Positions 21,045-30,931 of a stretch of DNA of 64,000 bases are shown here, piece by piece. The DNA is from Agrobacterium tumefaciens (lineage in GTDB: Bacteria; Pseudomonadota; Alphaproteobacteria; Rhizobiales; Rhizobiaceae). Every line of letters starts with the position of its first letter. The first letter of the stretch is position 1. The notes below the pieces were generated by a model. That model was not told the origin of the DNA, made no database searches, and saw only the letters and a list, made by a program, of their open reading frames with translations. The stretch covers positions 1,492,001 to 1,556,000 of the forward strand of contig CP048486.1 in the NCBI GenBank assembly GCA_025560025.1, written 5' to 3'. Position numbers and translations under genes: made by a program.

Positions 21045-22265
21045 TTAGTTCATCATATCAAGCAGCTGAAGAACCCGCTGCGCCATATCTGTGCCTCTGT
21101 CGTCGGCGCGCCAGGCCAATAGCAATGGAACGGAAAATGTCATCGGCAATGGGATTTTCGTCACCTTGGGGGAGGTTATTCCCACGCCGGACGGCAATAT
21201 CGAACAATATCCGTGGCCGACAATCAGTTGCACTGCCACCGGTATGCTGTCGATCTCAATCAACTGCACCTTTGATAGCCACGTTGGTCCAAGCAGATGC
21301 TCGAGAAAGCTTTCGGCCGTCTGGCGCAGTCCGGAGGCGCGGGAAGGCAGTACCAGAGGGTGCTTGAGGATCGCCTCGCGCATCTGTGACGGCGAATCTG
21401 CATCCGTCAGTTCAGGTGCTTCATGCTGCAGGAAACATGAAAGGTGGCTGCGCAAAACCTCACGGCTGCGCAGGCGAGAATTGTTGACTGGCATGTCGAC
21501 AAGGACTGCATCGTATCGCTGTTGTTCAAGTCCTTCCAGCAGGCTGTCTGCAAGTCCGGGCTGCATTAGCAGCGGTGTGTCGAAACGCCGTGCCCAGTTG
21601 GCGGCAATTCGCGCCAGAATAATTGCCGACGGGCTGTCCGTCGTTGCGGGAGGAATGCCGCCGAATGACCAATGCCGCAAATGCCGCTTGAAACGCAGGG
21701 CGGATGTGGAGTCCAGCGCAGCCCAGATATCGCGTAATTTGTGGACGTGGGGCGATATGCGCAGGCCCTCGGGCGATGCGCGCGAGCCGCTGCGGGTCCG
21801 TTCAAAAAGCCGGACGCCCAGATTGTCTTCCAGCATCGCCATCATCCGCGTCAGCTGTGGTTGCCCGATTTGAAGCCTCAATGCGGATTTACGGATCGAG
21901 CCCGATTCGAGAATGTCCACGAAGCGGAAGAGTGCAATCAGCGACACGCTTCTCTGATAAATATCTTTCTTACGGTCATCGCCGCACGCGCCATGGATCG
22001 CAAAGATTTCATGGGCGGCCTGCGCTAGATATGGGCCAAGTCTTCCGCCTTCCGCCGTCAGGATCAGGCCTTTTGCACCCTGGACGAAAAGCTTGACGGA
22101 CAGGGCGGTTTCCAGGCGGTTGACGGCGTCCGATACAGTTGAAACCGGAATTCCCGTTGTGTTGGACGCAAGGTGGATGCCGCCGAGCCGAACCACCTGG
22201 TCACATAAAAGAATCGTCGAAACCTTCACCGCCCACGCCTCGTCTTGGCCTTCCCATTTCGGCAT
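21045..22265 (-). CDS. LysR family regulator with two tandem HTH domains
   Basis: 406 aa, about 100 residues longer than a normal LysR protein. The extra length is an additional N-terminal winged HTH: residues about 15-75 (GIPVSTVSDAVNRLETALSV, then KLFVQGAKGLILTAEG) repeat the LysR pattern seen again at about 107-170 (QIGQPQLTRMMAMLEDNLGV, then RLFERTRSGSRASPEG). The effector domain is about 190-400. It is divergent from the hydantoinase gene over 72 bp and is the likely regulator of the ergothioneine-type operon. The ATG at 22265 has only a weak ribosome site; the first HTH needs it or a GTG 36 bp downstream. Confidence 0.92.
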   Translation of the reverse strand: MPKWEGQDEAWAVKVSTILLCDQVVRLGGIHLASNTTGIPVSTVSDAVNRLETALSVKLFVQGAKGLILTAEGGRLGPYLAQAAHEIFAIHGACGDDRKKDIYQRSVSLIALFRFVDILESGSIRKSALRLQIGQPQLTRMMAMLEDNLGVRLFERTRSGSRASPEGLRISPHVHKLRDIWAALDSTSALRFKRHLRHWSFGGIPPATTDSPSAIILARIAANWARRFDTPLLMQPGLADSLLEGLEQQRYDAVLVDMPVNNSRLRSREVLRSHLSCFLQHEAPELTDADSPSQMREAILKHPLVLPSRASGLRQTAESFLEHLLGPTWLSKVQLIEIDSIPVAVQLIVGHGYCSILPSGVGITSPKVTKIPLPMTFSVPLLLAWRADDRGTDMAQRVLQLLDMMN

Positions 22266-22337
22266 CGTCTGTCCGGATTTTGGGATATACCACTAATTTA
22301 ATTGTGCCTCATAGTCGAAATATGACAGGAGGACGAC
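22266..22337. promoter_or_regulatory. Divergent promoter region, LysR / ergothioneine-type operon
   Basis: 72 bp AT-rich gap between the two start codons. It contains ATACCACTAATTTAATTG, which includes a T-N11-A-type arrangement usual for LysR sites, and an AGGAGG ribosome site 7 bp before the hydantoinase ATG. There is room for one LysR operator and overlapping promoters only. Confidence 0.45.
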
Positions 22338-23720
22338 ATGGCGGATTTCGATACGGTTTTGGCGGGACGGGTCATTCTGACCGACCGCGAGATTTCTCGA
22401 GGTTTCGTGGCCATTCGCGAGGGGAAAACGGCACTCATCGGAGAAGGCCCCGCGCCGGCTGGGCGAGAAAATCATGATTTCGGCACCGGCCTTATATTGC
22501 CTGGCGCTATAGACGCACAGGTGCATTCGCTGTCGCAGAAGGGGGCCGAAGGTTTTGCGGCTTCGACCCGTGCGGCGGCGGCGGGCGGCGTCACGACAAT
22601 CGTGGACATGCCCTATGATGAGGGCAATCTCGTGTGTTCCGCCGAGGCCGTCAGGCGCAAGGTCGCGATGATCGACGGTGAGGCGCGCATCGACGTTGCG
22701 CTTTATGGCACTGTCGATCCGCAGGAGGGGGCTGCCCGCATTGCCGAACAGGCGGCGGCGGGAGTTTGTGCCTACAAGTTCTCGACCTTCGGCACGGATC
22801 CCCAACGCTTTCCGCGTATCCCACCCGCGCTGCTTCGCGCCTGTTTTGCCGAAATTGCAAAGACCGGGCTTGCCGCAGGCGTGCACAATGAGGACGACGC
22901 CTATGTCCGCGCCGCGATTTCCGAGGTCGAAGCATCCGGTATAACCGACTGGCGTGCGCACGGTCTGTCACGTCCCGAACTGGCCGAGACGCTGGCGATG
23001 CTGCAGATTTACGAAACCGGCGCCGAGACGGATTGTCCGGCGCATGTCGTCCATTGCTCCGTCAGCCGCGGTTACGAAATCGCCGAGATGTATCGCAGGA
23101 ACGGCCGGTATTCCTCCATCGAATGCTGCATTCACTACCTTGTTCTGGATGAGGAGAATGATGTCGCGCGGCTTGGCGGCAAGGCCAAGATCAACCCGCC
23201 GATACGCCCCCGCAAAGAAGTGGAGGCGATCTGGCGCCATCTGGCGGAAGGGCGGGTGTCGATGGTGTCCACCGATCACGTGAGCTGGAGCGAGGACCGC
23301 AAGACCAATCCCGATATGCTGAAAAATGCTTCCGGCGTCCCGGGGCTGGAGGTGATGGTGCCGCTTTTCGTCAAGGGCGCGATCGCACGCGGTGTGCCGC
23401 TGGTGTGGGCGGCCCGGCTTATGGCTGAAAATCCGGCCCGGCATTTTCGTCTGGACCACCAAAAAGGCGGGTTGCAGGTCGGGCGCGACGCTGACGTCAT
23501 GGTGCTGGTCGATCGGCCCGTGGTGTATGACGCAGCCACCAGTCCTCACTCCATCGCGGGGTGGTCGCCTTATCACGGCATGGAGCTGCCCTGGACGGTC
23601 GCAGCCACCTGGCGGCGAGGCGAGATGGTCTTTGACGGTGAAAACGTGCTGGCTGCGCCGGGAACAGGCGTTTTCGTGCGGCCGCCCGAAACACTTGGTC
23701 TGCGCAAGGTGCTGTTGTGA
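22338..23720 (+). CDS. Hydantoinase/dihydroorotase-like amidohydrolase (probable hydantoin-5-propionate hydrolase)
   Basis: 460 aa cyclic amidohydrolase of the hydantoinase/allantoinase group. The carbamylated lysine is probably K147 (CAYKFSTFG), with metal or substrate histidines H183 (GVHNEDD), H236/H239 (HVVHC) and D313 (STDHVSW). The N-terminal HxH metal motif reads D59-A-Q-V-H63, so its first histidine is glutamine. In the ergothioneine pathway this step opens hydantoin-5-propionate to N-carbamoylglutamate, and the next gene product would release glutamate. First gene of the operon, with a strong AGGAGG site; it overlaps the next gene by TGATG. Confidence 0.88.
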   Translation: MADFDTVLAGRVILTDREISRGFVAIREGKTALIGEGPAPAGRENHDFGTGLILPGAIDAQVHSLSQKGAEGFAASTRAAAAGGVTTIVDMPYDEGNLVCSAEAVRRKVAMIDGEARIDVALYGTVDPQEGAARIAEQAAAGVCAYKFSTFGTDPQRFPRIPPALLRACFAEIAKTGLAAGVHNEDDAYVRAAISEVEASGITDWRAHGLSRPELAETLAMLQIYETGAETDCPAHVVHCSVSRGYEIAEMYRRNGRYSSIECCIHYLVLDEENDVARLGGKAKINPPIRPRKEVEAIWRHLAEGRVSMVSTDHVSWSEDRKTNPDMLKNASGVPGLEVMVPLFVKGAIARGVPLVWAARLMAENPARHFRLDHQKGGLQVGRDADVMVLVDRPVVYDAATSPHSIAGWSPYHGMELPWTVAATWRRGEMVFDGENVLAAPGTGVFVRPPETLGLRKVLL

Positions 23721-24958
23721 TGCGCCGCAATCTCGATGCGTCAATAAAGGACATAGAAGCGGATCTCGACGCACTGGCGCAGATTACCGATCCGGAACGT
23801 CCCTGGACCCGCCGCGCCTTCTCGCCCCGTTTCGATGAAGGGCGCGACTATCTTCGGCGGCGTTTCCTGAGTGAAGGATTGAATGTCTCGACGGATGCGG
23901 GCGGGAACCTGATCGGTCGACGCGAAGGCACCGAGCCGCACGTCGGGACGATCATGCTGGGTTCGCATTCCGACACTGTGCCGGACGGCGGACGTTTTGA
24001 TGGTGTTGCCGGTGTCGTCGTTGCATTGGAGGTCGCACGCATTCTCTCACGGCGCGGTGTTGCCTTGCGGCACAATCTGGCCGTTGTCGATTTTCTTGCT
24101 GAAGAGGTATCCATTTTCGGGGTTTCCTGCATCGGTTCGCGAGCGATGGCGGGCGTTCTGCCGCAAGACTGGCTGAGGCGCATCAGTGACGGGCGCGATC
24201 TGGCGACGGCCATACGTGATGTGGGCGGCAAGCCGGAAAGTCTTGAAGCTCCCTTGGCTGACGACCTGAAGGCCTTTCTGGAACTACACATCGAGCAGGG
24301 GCCGGTTCTCGAACGGGAAAAGATTGCGCTTGGGGTGGTGACGACCATTGTCGGCATCAATCGCGTCGAGATCGAGGTTATGGGTCGTCCCGATCATGCC
24401 GGTACGACTCCGATGGGGTTGCGTACGGATGCCCTCGTTGCTGCGGCGCGGATCGTGAGTGAGATCGAGCGGTACGCGACGGAGCTTTCCGGTGGTCCCG
24501 GACATTTCACCGCAACTGTGGGCGAGTTCGAAATCTCCCCCAACGCCGCCAATGTGGTGCCGGGCCGGGTCCGCATGCTGGTTGATATCCGCGCCGAGCG
24601 GGCCGAGGACAAGGAAGCATTCGTATCCTGGCTGACCGGACTTGATGCGGACGGCGAAAACACGATCGAGGCGCGGCTGATTTCCGCCAATCCCGGCGTG
24701 CAGATGGATGATGGATTGCAGGAGACGCTGGCAAAGGCCGCCGACGGGCTGGACACGCCCTATCGAAAGATGGTGTCGGGTGCAGGCCATGACGCGGCAT
24801 TCATGACACGGCTGTGTCCTTCGGCGATGCTCTTCGTCCCTTGCCGCGACGGCCGTTCCCATTGCCCGGAAGAGTGGGCGGATGCGGCCGATCTCGCTTT
24901 GGCGGCTGAAGTTCTGGCGAACACGATTATGGAATTGGACAGAAAAAGGGAGGGCTGA
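23720..24958 (+). CDS. N-carbamoyl-L-amino acid / allantoate amidohydrolase (M20 family)
   Basis: 412 aa binuclear metallo-amidohydrolase of the HyuC/AllC type. Metal and substrate motifs are GSHSDTVPDGGRFDG, LAEEVSIFG, ELHIEQGPVLE and GRPDHAGTTPM, and the late HCPEEW supplies the last metal histidine. Here it probably cleaves N-carbamoyl-L-glutamate to glutamate, CO2 and ammonia. A GTG at 23717 is also in frame, but the ATG at 23720 forms a TGATG junction with the hydantoinase stop. The DUF917 gene begins 2 bp after its stop. Confidence 0.92.
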   Translation: MRRNLDASIKDIEADLDALAQITDPERPWTRRAFSPRFDEGRDYLRRRFLSEGLNVSTDAGGNLIGRREGTEPHVGTIMLGSHSDTVPDGGRFDGVAGVVVALEVARILSRRGVALRHNLAVVDFLAEEVSIFGVSCIGSRAMAGVLPQDWLRRISDGRDLATAIRDVGGKPESLEAPLADDLKAFLELHIEQGPVLEREKIALGVVTTIVGINRVEIEVMGRPDHAGTTPMGLRTDALVAAARIVSEIERYATELSGGPGHFTATVGEFEISPNAANVVPGRVRMLVDIRAERAEDKEAFVSWLTGLDADGENTIEARLISANPGVQMDDGLQETLAKAADGLDTPYRKMVSGAGHDAAFMTRLCPSAMLFVPCRDGRSHCPEEWADAADLALAAEVLANTIMELDRKREG

Positions 24959-24960
24959 AA

Positions 24961-26052
24961 GTGGCCAGAATTCTGACGGAGAAGGATGTGGAACCCGCGG
25001 TGCGGGGAGGCGCGGTCTATGCGGCCGGCGGTGGCGGCTGGGTCCATCATGGACGGAAGCTGGGCTATGCCGCGGTGAACGCCGGTGCGCCGGAACTCGT
25101 CTCCATCGACGAATTGAACGAAGACGACTGGGTGGCGACGGCTGCCGCCATCGGTGCGCCGGCCTCCACGACGCCCTGGGAAATGCGGGGCGTGGATTAT
25201 GTCAAGGCCGTGCAGCTTTTGCAGGACGAGCTTGGTGCGAAGGTCGCGGCCCTGATGATCGGGCAGAATGGCAAGTCCTCGACCCTCAACGCATGGCTGC
25301 CTTCGGCTATCCTGGGCTGCAAGGTGCTGGACGCGGTGGGTGACATGCGCGCCCATCCGACCGGCGACATGGGGGCGATCGGCATGGCCGGTAAACCGGA
25401 CCAGTCGATCCAGACGGCCGTCGGCGGAAATCGCGATCAGAACCGCTATATCGAACTCGTAACGCGTGGCGCAACCGGCCGTATCTCTCCCATCCTGCGC
25501 ACCGCCTCCGACATGTCGGGTGGTTTCATCGCCTCGGCCCGCAATCCGGTTCGCGCCGGTTACGTCGCGAAGAATGCGGCGCTCGGCGGAATTTCCAAGG
25601 CGCTGGAGCTTGGTCACGCAATCCTCGCCGCCGAGCCTCGAGGGCATGCGGCCGTTCTCGATGCGATCCTTTCGACCACGGGCGGCAGGATCATGATTGA
25701 AGGAGAGATCACCGCGAAGGATGTCGTTTATACGAATGAGGCTTTCGACGTCGGCACCGTCACCATCGGCAGGGGCGATGCGGCGCTGACCCTGCATGTG
25801 ATGAACGAATACATGGCGGTCGATGCGGTCGATGGCCGTCGTCTCGCAACCTTTCCGGATGTCATCACCACATTGTCGCAGGAGATCGAGCCGCTGTCTG
25901 TCGGCGAGCTGAAGGTCGGCATGAAGATCCACCTGCTGCATGTCCCAAAGACCCTCATTCCGATCGGCGCGGGCCTGATGGACCCGGCGATCTATGTCCA
26001 CCCCGAAAAGGTCATGGGTATCAACCTGACCAACTACGCATTGGAGGCCTGA
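24961..26052 (+). CDS. DUF917 / S-methyl-thiohydantoin desulfurase family protein
   Basis: 363 aa member of the DUF917 family. The glycine-rich start YAAGGGGWVHHGRKLG and the block RTASDMSGGF are characteristic. The family is linked in the literature to removal of sulfur from thiohydantoin in ergothioneine breakdown, converting the 2-thiohydantoin propionate to hydantoin propionate. It sits between the carbamoyl amidohydrolase and the urocanase homologue, exactly where that step is needed. The start is GTG at 24961. No cofactor motif can be assigned from sequence alone; the role rests on family and context. Confidence 0.87.
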   Translation: MARILTEKDVEPAVRGGAVYAAGGGGWVHHGRKLGYAAVNAGAPELVSIDELNEDDWVATAAAIGAPASTTPWEMRGVDYVKAVQLLQDELGAKVAALMIGQNGKSSTLNAWLPSAILGCKVLDAVGDMRAHPTGDMGAIGMAGKPDQSIQTAVGGNRDQNRYIELVTRGATGRISPILRTASDMSGGFIASARNPVRAGYVAKNAALGGISKALELGHAILAAEPRGHAAVLDAILSTTGGRIMIEGEITAKDVVYTNEAFDVGTVTIGRGDAALTLHVMNEYMAVDAVDGRRLATFPDVITTLSQEIEPLSVGELKVGMKIHLLHVPKTLIPIGAGLMDPAIYVHPEKVMGINLTNYALEA

Positions 26053-26054
26053 AG

Positions 26055-27713
26055 ATGCCGAGAGAGAATCCCCGCAATCCCGGCTTCCCGATCCCTTCAG
26101 GACCCGACCTTCGAGCGAAGGGCTGGCGGCAGGAAGCCCTGCTGCGCCTTATGGAAAATGTGCTGGCTGTCGGTGAAGACCCGGAAAATCTCGTCGTCTA
26201 CGCAGCACTCGGGAAGGCGGCGCGCAACAAGGCCGCATATGATGCCATCGTGCGTGCATTGACGACCATGGATGAGGATCAGACGCTTGTCATCCAGTCG
26301 GGAAAGCCGGTCGGGTTGATGAAGACTTCGGCCGAGGCTCCGATGGTCATCATGGCAAATTGCAACATGGTCGGCCAATGGGCCAAGGCCGAGAATTTTT
26401 ATGCTCTCGAACGCAAGGGTCTCATATGCTGGGGCGGCCTGACTGCGGGGGCATGGCAATATATCGGCTCGCAGGGCGTCATTCAGGGCACCTATGAAAT
26501 CTTCATGCGCATTGCCGAACGCCGCTTCGGCGGCACGCTGAACGGGCGTTTCGTATTGACCGCGGGCCTTGGCGGCATGGGAGGCGCACAGCCGCTTGCC
26601 GGCCGCATGGCGGGCGCGGCCATCCTGTGCGTGGAGATCAATCCGGAACGGGCCCGCACCCGCAAGGATATCGGCTATCTGGACGAGATTGCCGATGATC
26701 TCGATAGCGCACTGGCACGGATTGAAGAGGCCCGTTCGAAGGGTGAGGCGCTGTCCGTCGGCCTTGTCGGCAATGCAGCGGAAATCTATCCCGAAATAGC
26801 TGCGCGCGGGATCATCCCGGATATCGTGACCGACCAGACCTCCGCCCATGATCTTGTTTATGGCTATATTCCAATCGGTTACGATCTGGAACGGGTACGC
26901 CGCCTGCGCAGCCAGAATCCGGATGAACTGATCGAGGCCGGCAGGGCGTCGATTGCCAAACAGGTAACAGCCATGCTGGAATTCCAGCGGGCCGGCTCGG
27001 AGGTTTTCGACAATGGCAATTTGATCCGCACGCAGGCGCAGGCCGGCGGGGTTGCTGACGCCTTTGATATTCCGGTCTTCACTGAAGCTTATCTGCGCCC
27101 GCTGTTCTGCCGGGCGATTGGTCCCTTCCGCTGGATGGCCCTGTCGGGTGAGGCCTCGGACATTGCGCGGATAGACGAGCTGGTGCTGGAGATGTTTCCG
27201 GACAACAAGATTGTTACCAACTGGATTTCGCTGGCGCGCAAGTATGTTCCGTTCGAGGGGCTGCCGGCGCGCATCGCCTGGCTCGGCCATGGCGAACGAA
27301 GCGCACTCGCACGGCGGGTCAACGCTCTGGTCGCTTCGGGCGAATTGAAGGGGCCGGTCGCCTTCTCTCGCGATCACCTCGATTCAGCGGGCATGGCGCA
27401 TCCGAACATCATGACGGAGAACATGCTTGACGGTTCTGACGCCATCGCCGACTGGCCGCTTCTTGACGCGATGTTGCTCTGCGCTTCGCGCGCCGACCTC
27501 GTCGCGCTTCATTCCGGCGGTGGGGGATATGCGGGTTTCATGACCTCGGCAGGGGTCACGATCGTCGCTGACGGCACCAATGCGGCTGACGACCGGCTCT
27601 CGCAATCGCTCGACAACGATACGGGGCTCGGCGTCATCCGTTACGCGGATGCGGGCTATGCCGAGGCACAGGATGAAATTGCCAGCAAGGGCATAAATCA
27701 CGTGCAGATCTGA
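26055..27713 (+). CDS. Urocanase homologue, probable thiourocanate hydratase
   Basis: 552 aa, full urocanase length. NAD-binding TAGLGGMGGAQPLAGRMAG (about 169-187) and RPLFCRAIGPFRW are conserved. Two departures from HutU stand out: the loop YGQMTAGSW is WGGLTAGAW here (about 126-134), and GLPARICW is GLPARIAW, so the position of essential Cys410 of Pseudomonas urocanase is Ala408. These fit a different substrate, namely thiourocanate from ergothioneine. The neighbours carry no HutH with MIO, no HutI and no HutG, which argues against histidine degradation. It starts 2 bp after DUF917. Confidence 0.88.
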   Translation: MPRENPRNPGFPIPSGPDLRAKGWRQEALLRLMENVLAVGEDPENLVVYAALGKAARNKAAYDAIVRALTTMDEDQTLVIQSGKPVGLMKTSAEAPMVIMANCNMVGQWAKAENFYALERKGLICWGGLTAGAWQYIGSQGVIQGTYEIFMRIAERRFGGTLNGRFVLTAGLGGMGGAQPLAGRMAGAAILCVEINPERARTRKDIGYLDEIADDLDSALARIEEARSKGEALSVGLVGNAAEIYPEIAARGIIPDIVTDQTSAHDLVYGYIPIGYDLERVRRLRSQNPDELIEAGRASIAKQVTAMLEFQRAGSEVFDNGNLIRTQAQAGGVADAFDIPVFTEAYLRPLFCRAIGPFRWMALSGEASDIARIDELVLEMFPDNKIVTNWISLARKYVPFEGLPARIAWLGHGERSALARRVNALVASGELKGPVAFSRDHLDSAGMAHPNIMTENMLDGSDAIADWPLLDAMLLCASRADLVALHSGGGGYAGFMTSAGVTIVADGTNAADDRLSQSLDNDTGLGVIRYADAGYAEAQDEIASKGINHVQI

Positions 27714-27781
27714 CAGGTCAAAGCGAGGAGATGCCATCAATCGCCACGAAGGGCGGAAAATTACGATCACCAATCAACATC

Positions 27782-27801
27782 GCCTGCCGGCACCGGCAGG
27801 C
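27782..27801 (+). promoter_or_regulatory. Perfect hairpin in the leader of the MFS gene
   Basis: GCCTGCCGG and CCGGCAGGC are perfect inverted repeats around a 2-base centre. The element lies in the 103 bp gap after the urocanase homologue, 1 base before the AAGAGGGG ribosome site of the transporter. There is no T tract, so it is not a standard terminator; it may stabilise the upstream mRNA or limit translation of the transporter. Confidence 0.5.
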
Positions 27802-27816
27802 CAAGAGGGGACAATA

Positions 27817-29124
27817 ATGGAAAAAACATATCAAAATTTGTCAGTGACACCGGCCAGACGGTCATCACCGGAGCGCGCCGTTGCGGCAGCATCGATAGGC
27901 AACGCCCTGGAATGGTATGACTTCACCGTCTATGCGCTGTTTGCAATCTACATCGCCCATAATTTCTTTCCCGGCGGCGATCACACGGTCGAACTCGTGA
28001 AAGCCTTTCTCGCCTTCGGGCTAGGCTTCGTGATCCGCCCCCTGGGAGCCATCGTGATCGGGGTCTATGGCGACAAGGCTGGTCGAAAAGCCGCACTGTT
28101 CCTGACCATCATGATCATGGCGGCGGGTACCCTGCTGATCGCGGTGGCGCCGACCTACGCCGCGATCGGTGTGGGAGCGCCGCTCATGATCCTTGCCGGA
28201 CGAGTCCTTCAGGGCTTCTCCGCAGGTGGAGAAATCGGCGGAGCAGCCGCCTTTCTTGTCGAACATGCGCCCGCCGACAAAAAAGGCAAATATGCTTCCT
28301 GGCTGCAGGCAAGCATGGCGATTTCCAACATCATGGGTGCACTCGTCGCCTTTGCGGTTACCTCGCTTCTGACGGAGCAGGAGATCGGAGACTGGGGCTG
28401 GCGGATTCCGTTCTTCATTGGCGTACTGATCGCGCCGGTGGGCCTGTGGCTGCGCAAGACGCTGGACGAAACGCCGGCTTTTCAGGCCGAACAGGCAAGT
28501 CTGGAGAACCAGTCCGCCAAAACACCCCTGAAGCTCGTCTTCTCGGACTATTTCGGCCATCTGATCAAAGGCTTCGCTTTCTCGATCCTGTGGGCGGTTT
28601 GCGTTTATGTGCTGATCATCTACATGCCGATCTTCGTTCAGCGTGCTTTCGGTTTCAGCCCTTCGGAGGCGTTTACGGCATCGCTGATTGGTAACGTCTT
28701 CCTTGCCGTCGGTTGCGTCAGCGCCGGCAGCATTTCGGACAGGATCGGTCGGCGCTTGATGCTTGCCATTGCCGCCGGCGCAATGCTGGTCGCGGTCTAT
28801 CCCCTGATCTGGTGGTTGCAATCTTCGCCGACACTGACGACGCTCATCATCGTGCAAAGCCTCTTCTGCATCATGGTCTCGGGATATGTCGGGGTCGCAC
28901 CCGCAACCCTGTCCGAGGTTTTCCCGACGAATATCCGCACCACGGGCATGTCATTGGCCTACAATGCCGCCGTGACGATCTTCGGAGGATTTGCCCCGGC
29001 GACGCTGACCTGGCTTGGCAGCACGGGCATCGGTTATCACGCGCCCGGATTTTACGTCATGGCCGCCGCATTCATATCGCTGATAGCGGTCCTGATCCTG
29101 CCGAAGCCGTATTCCACGAACTGA
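27817..29124 (+). CDS. MFS transporter, metabolite:H+ symporter (ProP/ShiA-like)
   Basis: 435 aa inner-membrane carrier with 12 predicted helices. NALEWYDFTVYALFA near the N-terminus and the loop GVYGDKAGRKAAL (the MFS motif A) place it in the MHS group, which includes the betaine carrier ProP and the shikimate carrier ShiA. In this operon it would import either ergothioneine, a betaine, or thiourocanate if the lyase acts outside the cytoplasm. It lies 103 bp after the urocanase homologue and 142 bp before the lyase, longer gaps than elsewhere in the cluster. Confidence 0.92.
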   Translation: MEKTYQNLSVTPARRSSPERAVAAASIGNALEWYDFTVYALFAIYIAHNFFPGGDHTVELVKAFLAFGLGFVIRPLGAIVIGVYGDKAGRKAALFLTIMIMAAGTLLIAVAPTYAAIGVGAPLMILAGRVLQGFSAGGEIGGAAAFLVEHAPADKKGKYASWLQASMAISNIMGALVAFAVTSLLTEQEIGDWGWRIPFFIGVLIAPVGLWLRKTLDETPAFQAEQASLENQSAKTPLKLVFSDYFGHLIKGFAFSILWAVCVYVLIIYMPIFVQRAFGFSPSEAFTASLIGNVFLAVGCVSAGSISDRIGRRLMLAIAAGAMLVAVYPLIWWLQSSPTLTTLIIVQSLFCIMVSGYVGVAPATLSEVFPTNIRTTGMSLAYNAAVTIFGGFAPATLTWLGSTGIGYHAPGFYVMAAAFISLIAVLILPKPYSTN

Positions 29125-29167
29125 AGGAGATGGGCCGCTCAAGGCCCAGCTCCCCCAATTGCTCCAC

Positions 29168-29237
29168 CCGTCATGTCTGGAAGTTTCCAGTTGAAGCGAA
29201 GCCGTTTCGACGCCGGACAATGCTGCAGACATGACGG
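29168..29237. promoter_or_regulatory. 12 bp perfect inverted repeat upstream of the lyase gene
   Basis: CCGTCATGTCTG at 29168-29179 is the exact reverse complement of CAGACATGACGG at 29226-29237, separated by 46 bases. A nested palindrome CTGGAAGTTTCCAG at 29177-29190 shares three bases with the left arm. The right arm ends 29 bp before the lyase ATG. It could be two operator half-sites bridged by the tandem-HTH LysR protein, or a structured RNA leader. A separate small hairpin, TGGGCC/GGCCCA at 29131-29148, lies directly after the transporter stop. Confidence 0.5.
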
Positions 29238-29266
29238 CATAATAATAACCAACTCAAGGGAACATC

Positions 29267-30931
29267 ATGTCTGTTAAAAACGGGACTATTCATCGCCTCT
29301 CCATTGTCACAGCTTTTGCGATCACCGGGCTTGCTGCTTCAAACGCACGGGCGGAACATTGGTCCATCGATGGTCAAAACCTGACCGTGGAACAGGTCGT
29401 CGGCCTGGCGCGGGATGACAGCGCCAAGATTACTCTCACCGAAAGTGCGGGCAAACGGATCGCCGAAGGCTTCGATCTGGTGATGGAGGCTGCCCTGCAG
29501 GGCAAGGCGGTCTACGGCCTGACGGTTGGCGTTGGCTGGAACAAGGATCGCCCAGTTTTCGCGATGAAGGACGGCAAGCGCGTGCTGGACGACGATCTGC
29601 TGAAGCTGTCACGCGCTTTCAATTCTACATCCCTGCGCGCGCATGGTGCAGGCGTGGGTGAGCCGATGGCGGTCGAGGCCGTGAGGGCGGGCATGGCGAT
29701 CCGTCTAAACCAGATTGCAACCGGCCGAACCGGCGTTCAGAGCGCTGTCGCGGAAATGTATCGACAGTTTCTGGAGCAGGGGATCACCCCGGTCGTTCCT
29801 TCACGCGGTTCTGTGGGCGAGGCGGATATCACCCTTGCCTCCCATATCGGTCTGGCGATGGTCGGCGAGGGGGAGGTCTTCATGAAAGGCAACCGCATTC
29901 CCGCAGCGCGCGCCCTGACCGAGGCCGGCATCGCTCCGCTCGAACCGGTTGGCAAGGATTTCCTTTCGATCCTCAGCACGAATGCGCTGACCGCTGGACA
30001 GGCTGCCCTGCTGGCGCACGATACGGCGGGTTATCTCAAGAAGGAAGCCGTTGTCTTTGGTCTTGCACTGGAAGGTTTTAACGGCAATGTCGCCCCTTTC
30101 CTCGCGGCGACGAACGAGCTGCGCCCCTTTGCCGAAAACACATCCGGGGCACTGATGGTTCGCTCTGCCCTTGACGGCAGCTATCTCTGGTCGCCCGCGA
30201 AGGATCGGGCGCTGCAGGACCCACTGTCTTATCGCACCATGGCCTATGTGCTTGGCGGAGCCGAAATTGCAACGCAGGATTTGACCAGGGCGCTGGAAAT
30301 CCAGATCAATCGCAGTGATGACAATCCGGGCGTAGTTGCGGGAGCCTCGGACGACAAGGCTTCCGGACAGGTCTCGCAGTATTTTATCGAGGGCGACGTA
30401 TCGGGAGCGATCTATCCGAGTGCGGGTTTTGAGATGTTGCCGGTGGCCTCAAGGGTTGAAACACTGAACACGGCGCTGGTGCGTCTGTCACAGGCCATTA
30501 CGATGCAGACGATCCGCTTCGAAAACCCGGATTTGACGCATCTTTCGCGGTTCCTTGCTGCTGAAACCAATCAAGGACATGCGTTTGGCGCGATCCAGAA
30601 GCCACTCGTCGCGCTTCTGGCCGAAAACCAGCAGATCGGCGCGCAGGCTCCCGTCGGCTCGGTTGCGATGGCAGGAAATATCGAGGATCTGGACAGCCAC
30701 GCACCGCTTTCGGTCGCCAATCTCGGCCGAATTCTGGATAATCTGTACTGGATGTCCTCGATCCAGTTGCTACATGCGGCGCAAGCCGTTGATCTGCGCA
30801 AACCCGGGACGTTGGGAGCGGGAACAAAAGCGCTGTTTGAAGATTATCGCCGCAATGTGCCCTTTGTGGCGGTGGACCGAATATATAGCAATGATTTCAG
30901 TACGGGTTATCGGTTTCTCAAGGCCCGTTGA
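29267..30931 (+). CDS. MIO-less ammonia-lyase homologue with signal peptide, probable ergothionase
   Basis: 554 aa histidine/phenylalanine ammonia-lyase fold. The family backbone is clear (RAHGAGVGEPM, TPVVPSRGSVG, GEGEVFMKGNR), but the Ala-Ser-Gly that forms the MIO electrophile is E185-A-D187. The known MIO-free branch is ergothionase, which eliminates trimethylamine from ergothioneine to give thiourocanate. Residues 1-29 form a typical Sec signal peptide (K4 and R10, hydrophobic core, ARA before E30), so the mature enzyme should be periplasmic; the usual lyases are cytoplasmic. AAGGGA precedes the ATG. The gene completes the ergothioneine set with the urocanase, DUF917, hydantoinase and carbamoylase genes. 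Confidence 0.9.
   Translation: MSVKNGTIHRLSIVTAFAITGLAASNARAEHWSIDGQNLTVEQVVGLARDDSAKITLTESAGKRIAEGFDLVMEAALQGKAVYGLTVGVGWNKDRPVFAMKDGKRVLDDDLLKLSRAFNSTSLRAHGAGVGEPMAVEAVRAGMAIRLNQIATGRTGVQSAVAEMYRQFLEQGITPVVPSRGSVGEADITLASHIGLAMVGEGEVFMKGNRIPAARALTEAGIAPLEPVGKDFLSILSTNALTAGQAALLAHDTAGYLKKEAVVFGLALEGFNGNVAPFLAATNELRPFAENTSGALMVRSALDGSYLWSPAKDRALQDPLSYRTMAYVLGGAEIATQDLTRALEIQINRSDDNPGVVAGASDDKASGQVSQYFIEGDVSGAIYPSAGFEMLPVASRVETLNTALVRLSQAITMQTIRFENPDLTHLSRFLAAETNQGHAFGAIQKPLVALLAENQQIGAQAPVGSVAMAGNIEDLDSHAPLSVANLGRILDNLYWMSSIQLLHAAQAVDLRKPGTLGAGTKALFEDYRRNVPFVAVDRIYSNDFSTGYRFLKAR

Follow-up and report, generated by a model that had tools for sequence, protein, structure and literature searches.

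An ergothioneine degradation operon in Agrobacterium tumefaciens that pairs a putatively secreted lyase with an MHS-family carrier

Ergothioneine is a dietary antioxidant, and a bacterial five-step pathway for its degradation, which runs through ergothionase, thiourocanate hydratase, thiohydantoin desulfurase, ErtD and ErtE, was reportedly reconstituted in vitro by Beliaeva, Leisinger and Seebeck in 2021. The pathway itself is known and curated: four of its five enzymes have dedicated models in NCBIfam 20.0. Here we analyse an operon of this kind in a 64,000-nucleotide stretch of Agrobacterium tumefaciens DNA (the window, G000:C2:1492001-1556000 in a 5.68 Mb genome; positions below follow window numbering). 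Its first enzyme is a methylideneimidazolone (MIO)-free lyase with a predicted signal peptide, which we propose to be a secreted ergothionase.

According to a 2026 paper, ergothionase has been identified in A. radiobacter and, by BLAST-P, is limited to few bacterial genera; the authors themselves warn that divergent homologues are unaccounted for (PMC13405746). In the open-licence literature we found no description of a secreted first step combined with an organic-acid carrier, nor any papers on ergothioneine with urocanate reductase or on ergothionase with a signal peptide; thiourocanate together with a transporter gave one. The name 'ergothionase' is absent from the best 120 of 1839 matches to the Burkholderia arboris lyase, where most rows are unnamed and names are shortened. 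The secreted variant may already be touched on in studies of the ergothioneine sulfonate pathway or of the ergothionase from Burkholderia sp. HME13 (accession BAM63550 in PMC13405746).

Identity of the pathway enzymes

The original prediction had read five co-directional enzyme families, an MHS-type carrier and a divergent LysR gene as one module for ergothioneine degradation. All of these open reading frames (ORFs) were found, their families were confirmed by Pfam and NCBIfam, and the module spans positions 21045-30931 (Table 1). Between 22338 and 30931 the + strand carries, in this order, the operon genes for ErtD, ErtE, the DUF917 protein, the urocanase homologue, the MHS carrier and the lyase, with the ErtE frame overlapping the ErtD frame by 4 bases. 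Four of the enzymes, the thiourocanate hydratase, the thiohydantoin desulfurase, ErtD and ErtE, exceed the cut-offs of the NCBIfam ergothioneine-pathway models, and the lyase is nearest to the Treponema denticola ergothionase, which upholds the predicted five-step route. Judged by these models, the operon belongs to the known five-step pathway. On the ErtE gene the generic Zn-hydrolase model NF009531 outscores the ErtE model (668.7, cut-off 486).

The phylogenetic placement proposed with the original prediction has now been run, and neither the lyase nor the urocanase homologue groups with histidine-degradation enzymes. In a urocanase tree of 69 rows the window protein falls with 54 other hydratases from pathway loci, separate from 14 HutU-like rows (support 100/99*). 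This tree leaves out L024 (a hydratase of 265 residues), L194 (no hydratase match), L203 (an MIO-type lyase) and L204 (under the desulfurase cut-off). Two further urocanases of the same genome score 686.9 on the thiourocanate model, under its cut-off of 930. The solved chain nearest to the window hydratase is 7ned, deposited as urocanate hydratase.

It had also been expected that automatic annotation would miss the pathway. This is true of older records: the relative on a Paracoccus aminophilus plasmid is labelled 'amidohydrolase family protein', 'Zn-dependent hydrolase', 'DUF917 family protein' and 'urocanate hydratase', and named relatives of the lyase carry labels such as 'histidine ammonia-lyase', 'aromatic amino acid lyase' and 'HAL/PAL/TAL family ammonia-lyase'. 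It does not hold for NCBIfam 20.0, which names four of the five enzymes. Current annotation models would name the pathway and leave the lyase alone unnamed, as this protein passes no curated NCBIfam model (8 matches, all under cut-off; hutH 227.3 versus 539.15).

The MIO-free lyase, its signal peptide and its carriers

The best sequence matches of the lyase in the PDB are 6s7j and 6s7q, T. denticola ergothionase (E 2.3e-80). A fold search with an AlphaFold2 model built on 21 sequences (mean predicted local distance difference test score 84.4) also gave 6s7j as the best hit, with a template modelling score of 0.91 on the target and 34% identity in the structural alignment. The MIO triad A-S-G is absent; a residue alignment places G-E-A-D-I-T at the site, and residues 185 and 186 are A and S in all 27 MIO/HutH rows. 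K93, D94, N148, D231, S237 and N239 are shared by T. denticola and 98-100% of 94 secreted-family rows, as against fewer than 10% of the 27 MIO/HutH rows. The latter represent 25 distinct genes, with the genome's own HutH counted three times; the HutH rows come from 24 HutH loci, a 25th having yielded no triad-bearing frame, and two G-S-L-G-Y-I-T-H rows, which are one gene, were set aside. Repeats also occur among the secreted rows, where L003 and L205 represent a single gene and L010 and L207 a single species.

In a lyase tree of 59 of the 126 aligned rows, with the Burkholderia HME13 and A. radiobacter ergothionases not among them, the window lyase lies in an MIO-free clade apart from three HutH-like rows (100/99*). 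Lyases of a signal-less type group in a single clade (100/100*) and secreted-type lyases in a second one (96/96*), beside which T. denticola falls at 88/64, without a star. We propose ergothionase activity for the window lyase.

The start of the lyase resembles a Sec signal peptide, a feature that, like the two DNA-binding domains of the LysR regulator, goes beyond what the original prediction had observed. By hydropathy and a hand-made rule such signals were called in 18 of the 19 lyases of secreted-type operons, the window included; the single miss, L013, has the hydrophobic stretch and lacks the basic residue. The same rule calls a signal in 68 of 75 other secreted-family rows (T. denticola is among the 75, without a signal). 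It does so for one row among the 26 of the signal-less type and for one among three MIO rows, the latter where the frame had been extended upstream. Two class assignments call for comment: the motif put the second lyase of L054 in the signal-less class, from which it was reassigned by hand, and L201 is of the signal-less type by motif and clade, its start lying outside the fetched stretch. The wider family is large. A contig scan with the lyase alignment found 493 places encoding a relative, 80 of which were kept and examined, including members from the gut-known genera Parasutterella and Citrobacter; the MIO triad is absent from all 80, and most have signal-like starts. Some actinobacterial secreted-family lyases (P0095, P0107, P0120 and L023) end in a hydrophobic C-terminal stretch with a basic tail, like a membrane anchor.

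A second set of searches started from the pathway models instead of the lyase. Of 397 genomes in the order, 32 exceed the cut-off of the desulfurase model; of 398 in the phylum six do, all of them within the order's 32. The cut-off of the hydratase model is exceeded in 5 of 385 genomes of the class, and each count includes the window's genome. At the 35 other loci found with these two models there are 25 signal-less MIO-free lyases (motif e.g. G-S-I-G-C-A-D-I-G; one of the 25 starts is cut off), one MIO-type lyase, nine cases with no lyase within reach and none of the window type. The window's layout is thus a minority in its order. The MIO-type case, L203 (G086), has a hydratase-desulfurase pair beside a lyase that carries the MIO triad.

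Carriers were compared between the two lyase types. Besides the window we collected 18 operons with a secreted lyase, 16 from the lyase scan and two from plasmid loci (six loci read of nine records at at least 60% identity: two of the secreted type, one of the signal-less type and three without a lyase). Of the 18, 16 have an MHS homologue, compared with none of 26 signal-less-type loci, and the remaining two, from Martelella and Photobacterium, have TRAP genes directly before the lyase. For OpuAC-type (betaine-type) binding proteins the counts within the fetched flank are 0 of 18 versus 18 of 26. Among 12 loci without a lyase, TRAP genes occur in four and amino-acid ABC genes in four. The sample has its limits: L010 and L207 are the one-species pair named above, L015-L020 are six close relatives, two metagenome-assembled genomes are possibly misbinned, and contig ends truncate L012 as well as L024, of which only hydratase, carrier and lyase are visible. 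The window carrier itself is under all cut-offs (TIGR00883 384.9, cut-off 443.45; TcuC 358.5, cut-off 445; ProP 272.9 bits, cut-off 544). We regard the association between secreted lyase and organic-acid-type carrier as suggestive. One record of the set, L018, is titled Bacillus subtilis and bears a Pseudochrobactrum-like ergothioneine operon; it is probably a mislabelled assembly.

A further group of relatives has another neighbourhood. A flavocytochrome-c-family reductase lies near the lyase in 47 of the 80 family loci (46 on the same strand; one 2.4 kb off), and in 45 of these 47 an ORF with at least three CxxCH motifs is found within 4 kb, the reductase and cytochrome families having been checked with models on one or two examples. 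Neither hydratase nor desulfurase occurs in the fetched flank of any of the 47. By eye, many of the reductase starts have the appearance of Tat signals. The 47 loci are L026, L038, L039, L075, L071 and 42 more; lyases beside such reductases occur in Shewanella, Ferrimonas, enterobacteria and Parasutterella. If the reductase is exported, the product of the lyase would be needed outside the cytoplasm, and in this way the wider family strengthens the case for an extracytoplasmic location. These relatives may thus take part in a periplasmic respiration that uses ergothioneine or a similar betaine.

Proposed mechanism and alternatives

Starting from the computed family identities, the missing MIO triad, the N-terminus that resembles a signal peptide and the pairing of secreted lyases with organic-acid-type carriers, we infer substrate, compartment, transport cargo and direction, and regulation as follows. 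The operon would degrade ergothioneine from the surroundings. The Sec signal peptide would export the MIO-free lyase to the periplasm, where it would split ergothioneine into thiourocanate and trimethylamine, the latter staying outside. Thiourocanate is a carboxylate, and the MHS carrier would bring it into the cytoplasm, where thiourocanate hydratase and then thiohydantoin desulfurase, with release of sulfide, would yield hydantoin propionate, which ErtD and ErtE would convert to N-carbamoylglutamate and finally to glutamate. The LysR regulator with its two DNA-binding domains would control the operon. Cleavage in the periplasm, import of thiourocanate by the MHS carrier and conversion to glutamate inside is, in our judgement, the probable course of events. 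Outside cleavage followed by import of a carboxylate explains the signal peptide, the carrier and the missing betaine importer together.

More tentatively, there may be two interchangeable layouts of the pathway, between which lyase and carrier are exchanged jointly. In one, ergothioneine would be imported and then cleaved (signal-less lyase, betaine-type ABC transporter); in the other it would be cleaved outside and the acid imported (secreted lyase, MHS or TRAP carrier), while members of the secreted family beside reductases would supply a respiration in the periplasm that uses ergothioneine or a related betaine. Because the window group nests inside the clade of signal-less-type operons, its secreted lyase and MHS carrier were perhaps acquired together.

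Several points weigh against the proposed mechanism. The signal calls come only from hydropathy and our own hand-made rule, and export is not universal in the family, as neither the T. denticola chain seen nor two Enterococcus members have a signal peptide. Only 85 of the 94 secreted-family rows keep K445, a residue that T. denticola also has, and the secreted clade is joined only weakly to its sister, the T. denticola ergothionase (88/64, no star, long branch). In eight of the 26 signal-less-type loci, no OpuAC-type protein lies within reach. In the urocanase tree (36 rows used for this comparison) the lyase type changes just twice and the carrier both times; the association is clean, yet 2/2 gives a sign test p of 0.5, and the Fisher p-values for the pairing (3.7e-10 and 1.6e-6) treat relatives as independent. 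Finally, the MHS family includes betaine carriers.

This last point bears on an ordinary cytoplasmic pathway, in which the MHS carrier imports ergothioneine as ProP would, the lyase acts inside and its N-terminus is no working export signal. The resemblance of the carrier to ProP, itself under cut-off, fits such a pathway, as does the part of the T. denticola chain seen. We nevertheless think it unlikely, given that the TcuC tricarballylate carrier model, also under cut-off, outscores ProP on this protein, that TRAP genes replace MHS in two operons, and that the further family rows bring signal-like starts, membrane-anchor-like tails in some actinobacterial members and, in more than half of the examined loci, neighbouring reductases. 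The lyase or the operon might instead serve mainly a relative of ergothioneine, e.g. ergothioneine sulfonate or hercynine. An ergothioneine sulfonate pathway is attributed to Yan et al. 2022, ACS Catal., in PMC13405746, and the many family lyases without hydratase or desulfurase in the fetched flank leave room for a broader substrate range; we find this quite unlikely for the window, where the thiohydantoin desulfurase and thiourocanate hydratase models, both passed, fit a 2-thio substrate.

That a histidine-utilisation or S-methyl-ergothioneine operon has been misread here is disfavoured and highly improbable. The hydratase does exceed the cut-off of the HutU model TIGR01228 as well (696, cut-off 375), a score that counts against our assignment, but the lyase has no A-S-G triad and falls far below the hutH cut-off, the HutU-like rows form their own clade, and the genome holds other lyase and urocanase genes, one lyase being above the hutH cut-off. 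Histidine utilisation is rejected on the triad, the hutH score and the separate HutU clade. The S-methyl variant is rejected on its own models, with the hydratase at 746.8 on the S-methyl thiourocanate hydratase model (cut-off 880) and the desulfurase at 284 on NF058532 (cut-off 450).

Were members of the secreted family to split ergothioneine outside the cell, trimethylamine would be released to the surroundings, thiourocanate would become a shared good, and the spread of ergothionase activity would have been underestimated so far.

Gene order, regulator and comparison with known systems

Three Agrobacterium/Rhizobium rhizogenes records (L008, L009 and L013) have all seven genes in the same order, at 91-100% identity, and the six operon genes recur at 73-90% identity in two Paracoccus records (L010 and L011), where the LysR protein is 34% and 63% identical. 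Because of this recurrence the cluster is not a chance arrangement. Within the genus the window lyase is patchy: a search for the lyase alone found matches of at least 93% identity in 7 of 39 genomes, one of them the window's own. Sigma-70 sites (2 versus a mean of 3.3 in shuffles) and terminators (5 versus 9.0) showed no excess over shuffles, therefore no promoter is claimed. Two tandem HTH_1 stretches precede the effector domain in all ten LysR proteins scanned, from the window and nine related loci; this layout seems unusual.

Table 1. Features of the module in window coordinates
Feature	Position	Strand	Basis
LysR-family regulator	21045..22265	-	Pfam HTH_1 (2 stretches) and LysR_substrate; divergent from operon
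ErtD, hydantoin-5-propionate amidohydrolase	22338..23720	+	NF058538 757.7 bits, cut-off 600
ErtE, N-carbamyl-L-glutamate amidohydrolase (M20)	23717..24958	+	NF058540 598.3 bits, cut-off 520
Thiohydantoin desulfurase (DUF917 / S-Me-THD-like)	24961..26052	+	NF058529 559.7 bits, cut-off 440
Thiourocanate hydratase (urocanase homologue)	26055..27713	+	NF058530 1044.8 bits, cut-off 930; tree
MHS-family secondary carrier, proposed thiourocanate importer	27817..29124	+	Sub-cut-off model scores; operon co-occurrence
MIO-free aromatic-lyase-fold enzyme, proposed secreted ergothionase	29267..30931	+	PDB sequence search, fold, tree, residues
Predicted Sec signal peptide of lyase, residues 1-29	29267..29353	+	K4/R10, hydrophobic stretch, AxA (A-R-A) before cut after residue 29
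G-S-V-G-E-A-D-I-T, lyase residues 181-189, at MIO A-S-G site	29807..29833	+	Alignment

Elsewhere the genome encodes a second secreted-family MIO-free lyase (G000:C2:1606706-1608298; L205:16698-18344, - strand), 43% identical and with the motif G-S-V-G-Q-A-D-M-T, which adjoins neither a hydratase nor a desulfurase. Among the matches listed, lyases of this type occur in 2 of 39 genomes of the genus, both of the window's species. A second hut-type cluster lies nearby (L205:7277-14755, - strand). Its lyase, which has G-S-L-G-Y-I-T-H in the MIO position, scores 467.3 on hutH (cut-off 539.15) and adjoins a HutU and genes that resemble, by eye, a betaine/histidine ABC transporter and HutF; this is possibly a histidine-betaine route. 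Three more DUF917 paralogues (G000:C2:513553-514527, 516386-517387 and 2054142-2055137) score 82.9-103.6 bits, against the desulfurase cut-off of 440. The EgtB and EgtD models gave no match in the genome, which speaks for the proposed mechanism, though as a weak absence, since no control genome passed the cut-offs either.

Compared with known systems, the reductase-linked relatives of the window lyase recall the UrdA-type periplasmic respiration by urocanate reductase, in that they likewise adjoin flavocytochrome-c-family reductases and CxxCH-rich ORFs; unlike these systems, the window operon has catabolic enzymes in place of such a reductase. The T. denticola ergothionase shares with the window lyase its fold, the absence of the MIO triad and the residues around K93/D94 and others, whereas the two are just 34% identical and the T. 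denticola chain seen starts near the catalytic domain. The A. radiobacter ergothionase comes from the same genus group, and either the window lyase or the second secreted paralogue may be its orthologue. With the known five-step pathway the window has all five roles in common, and it differs in a first enzyme of the secreted type that is paired with an MHS carrier.

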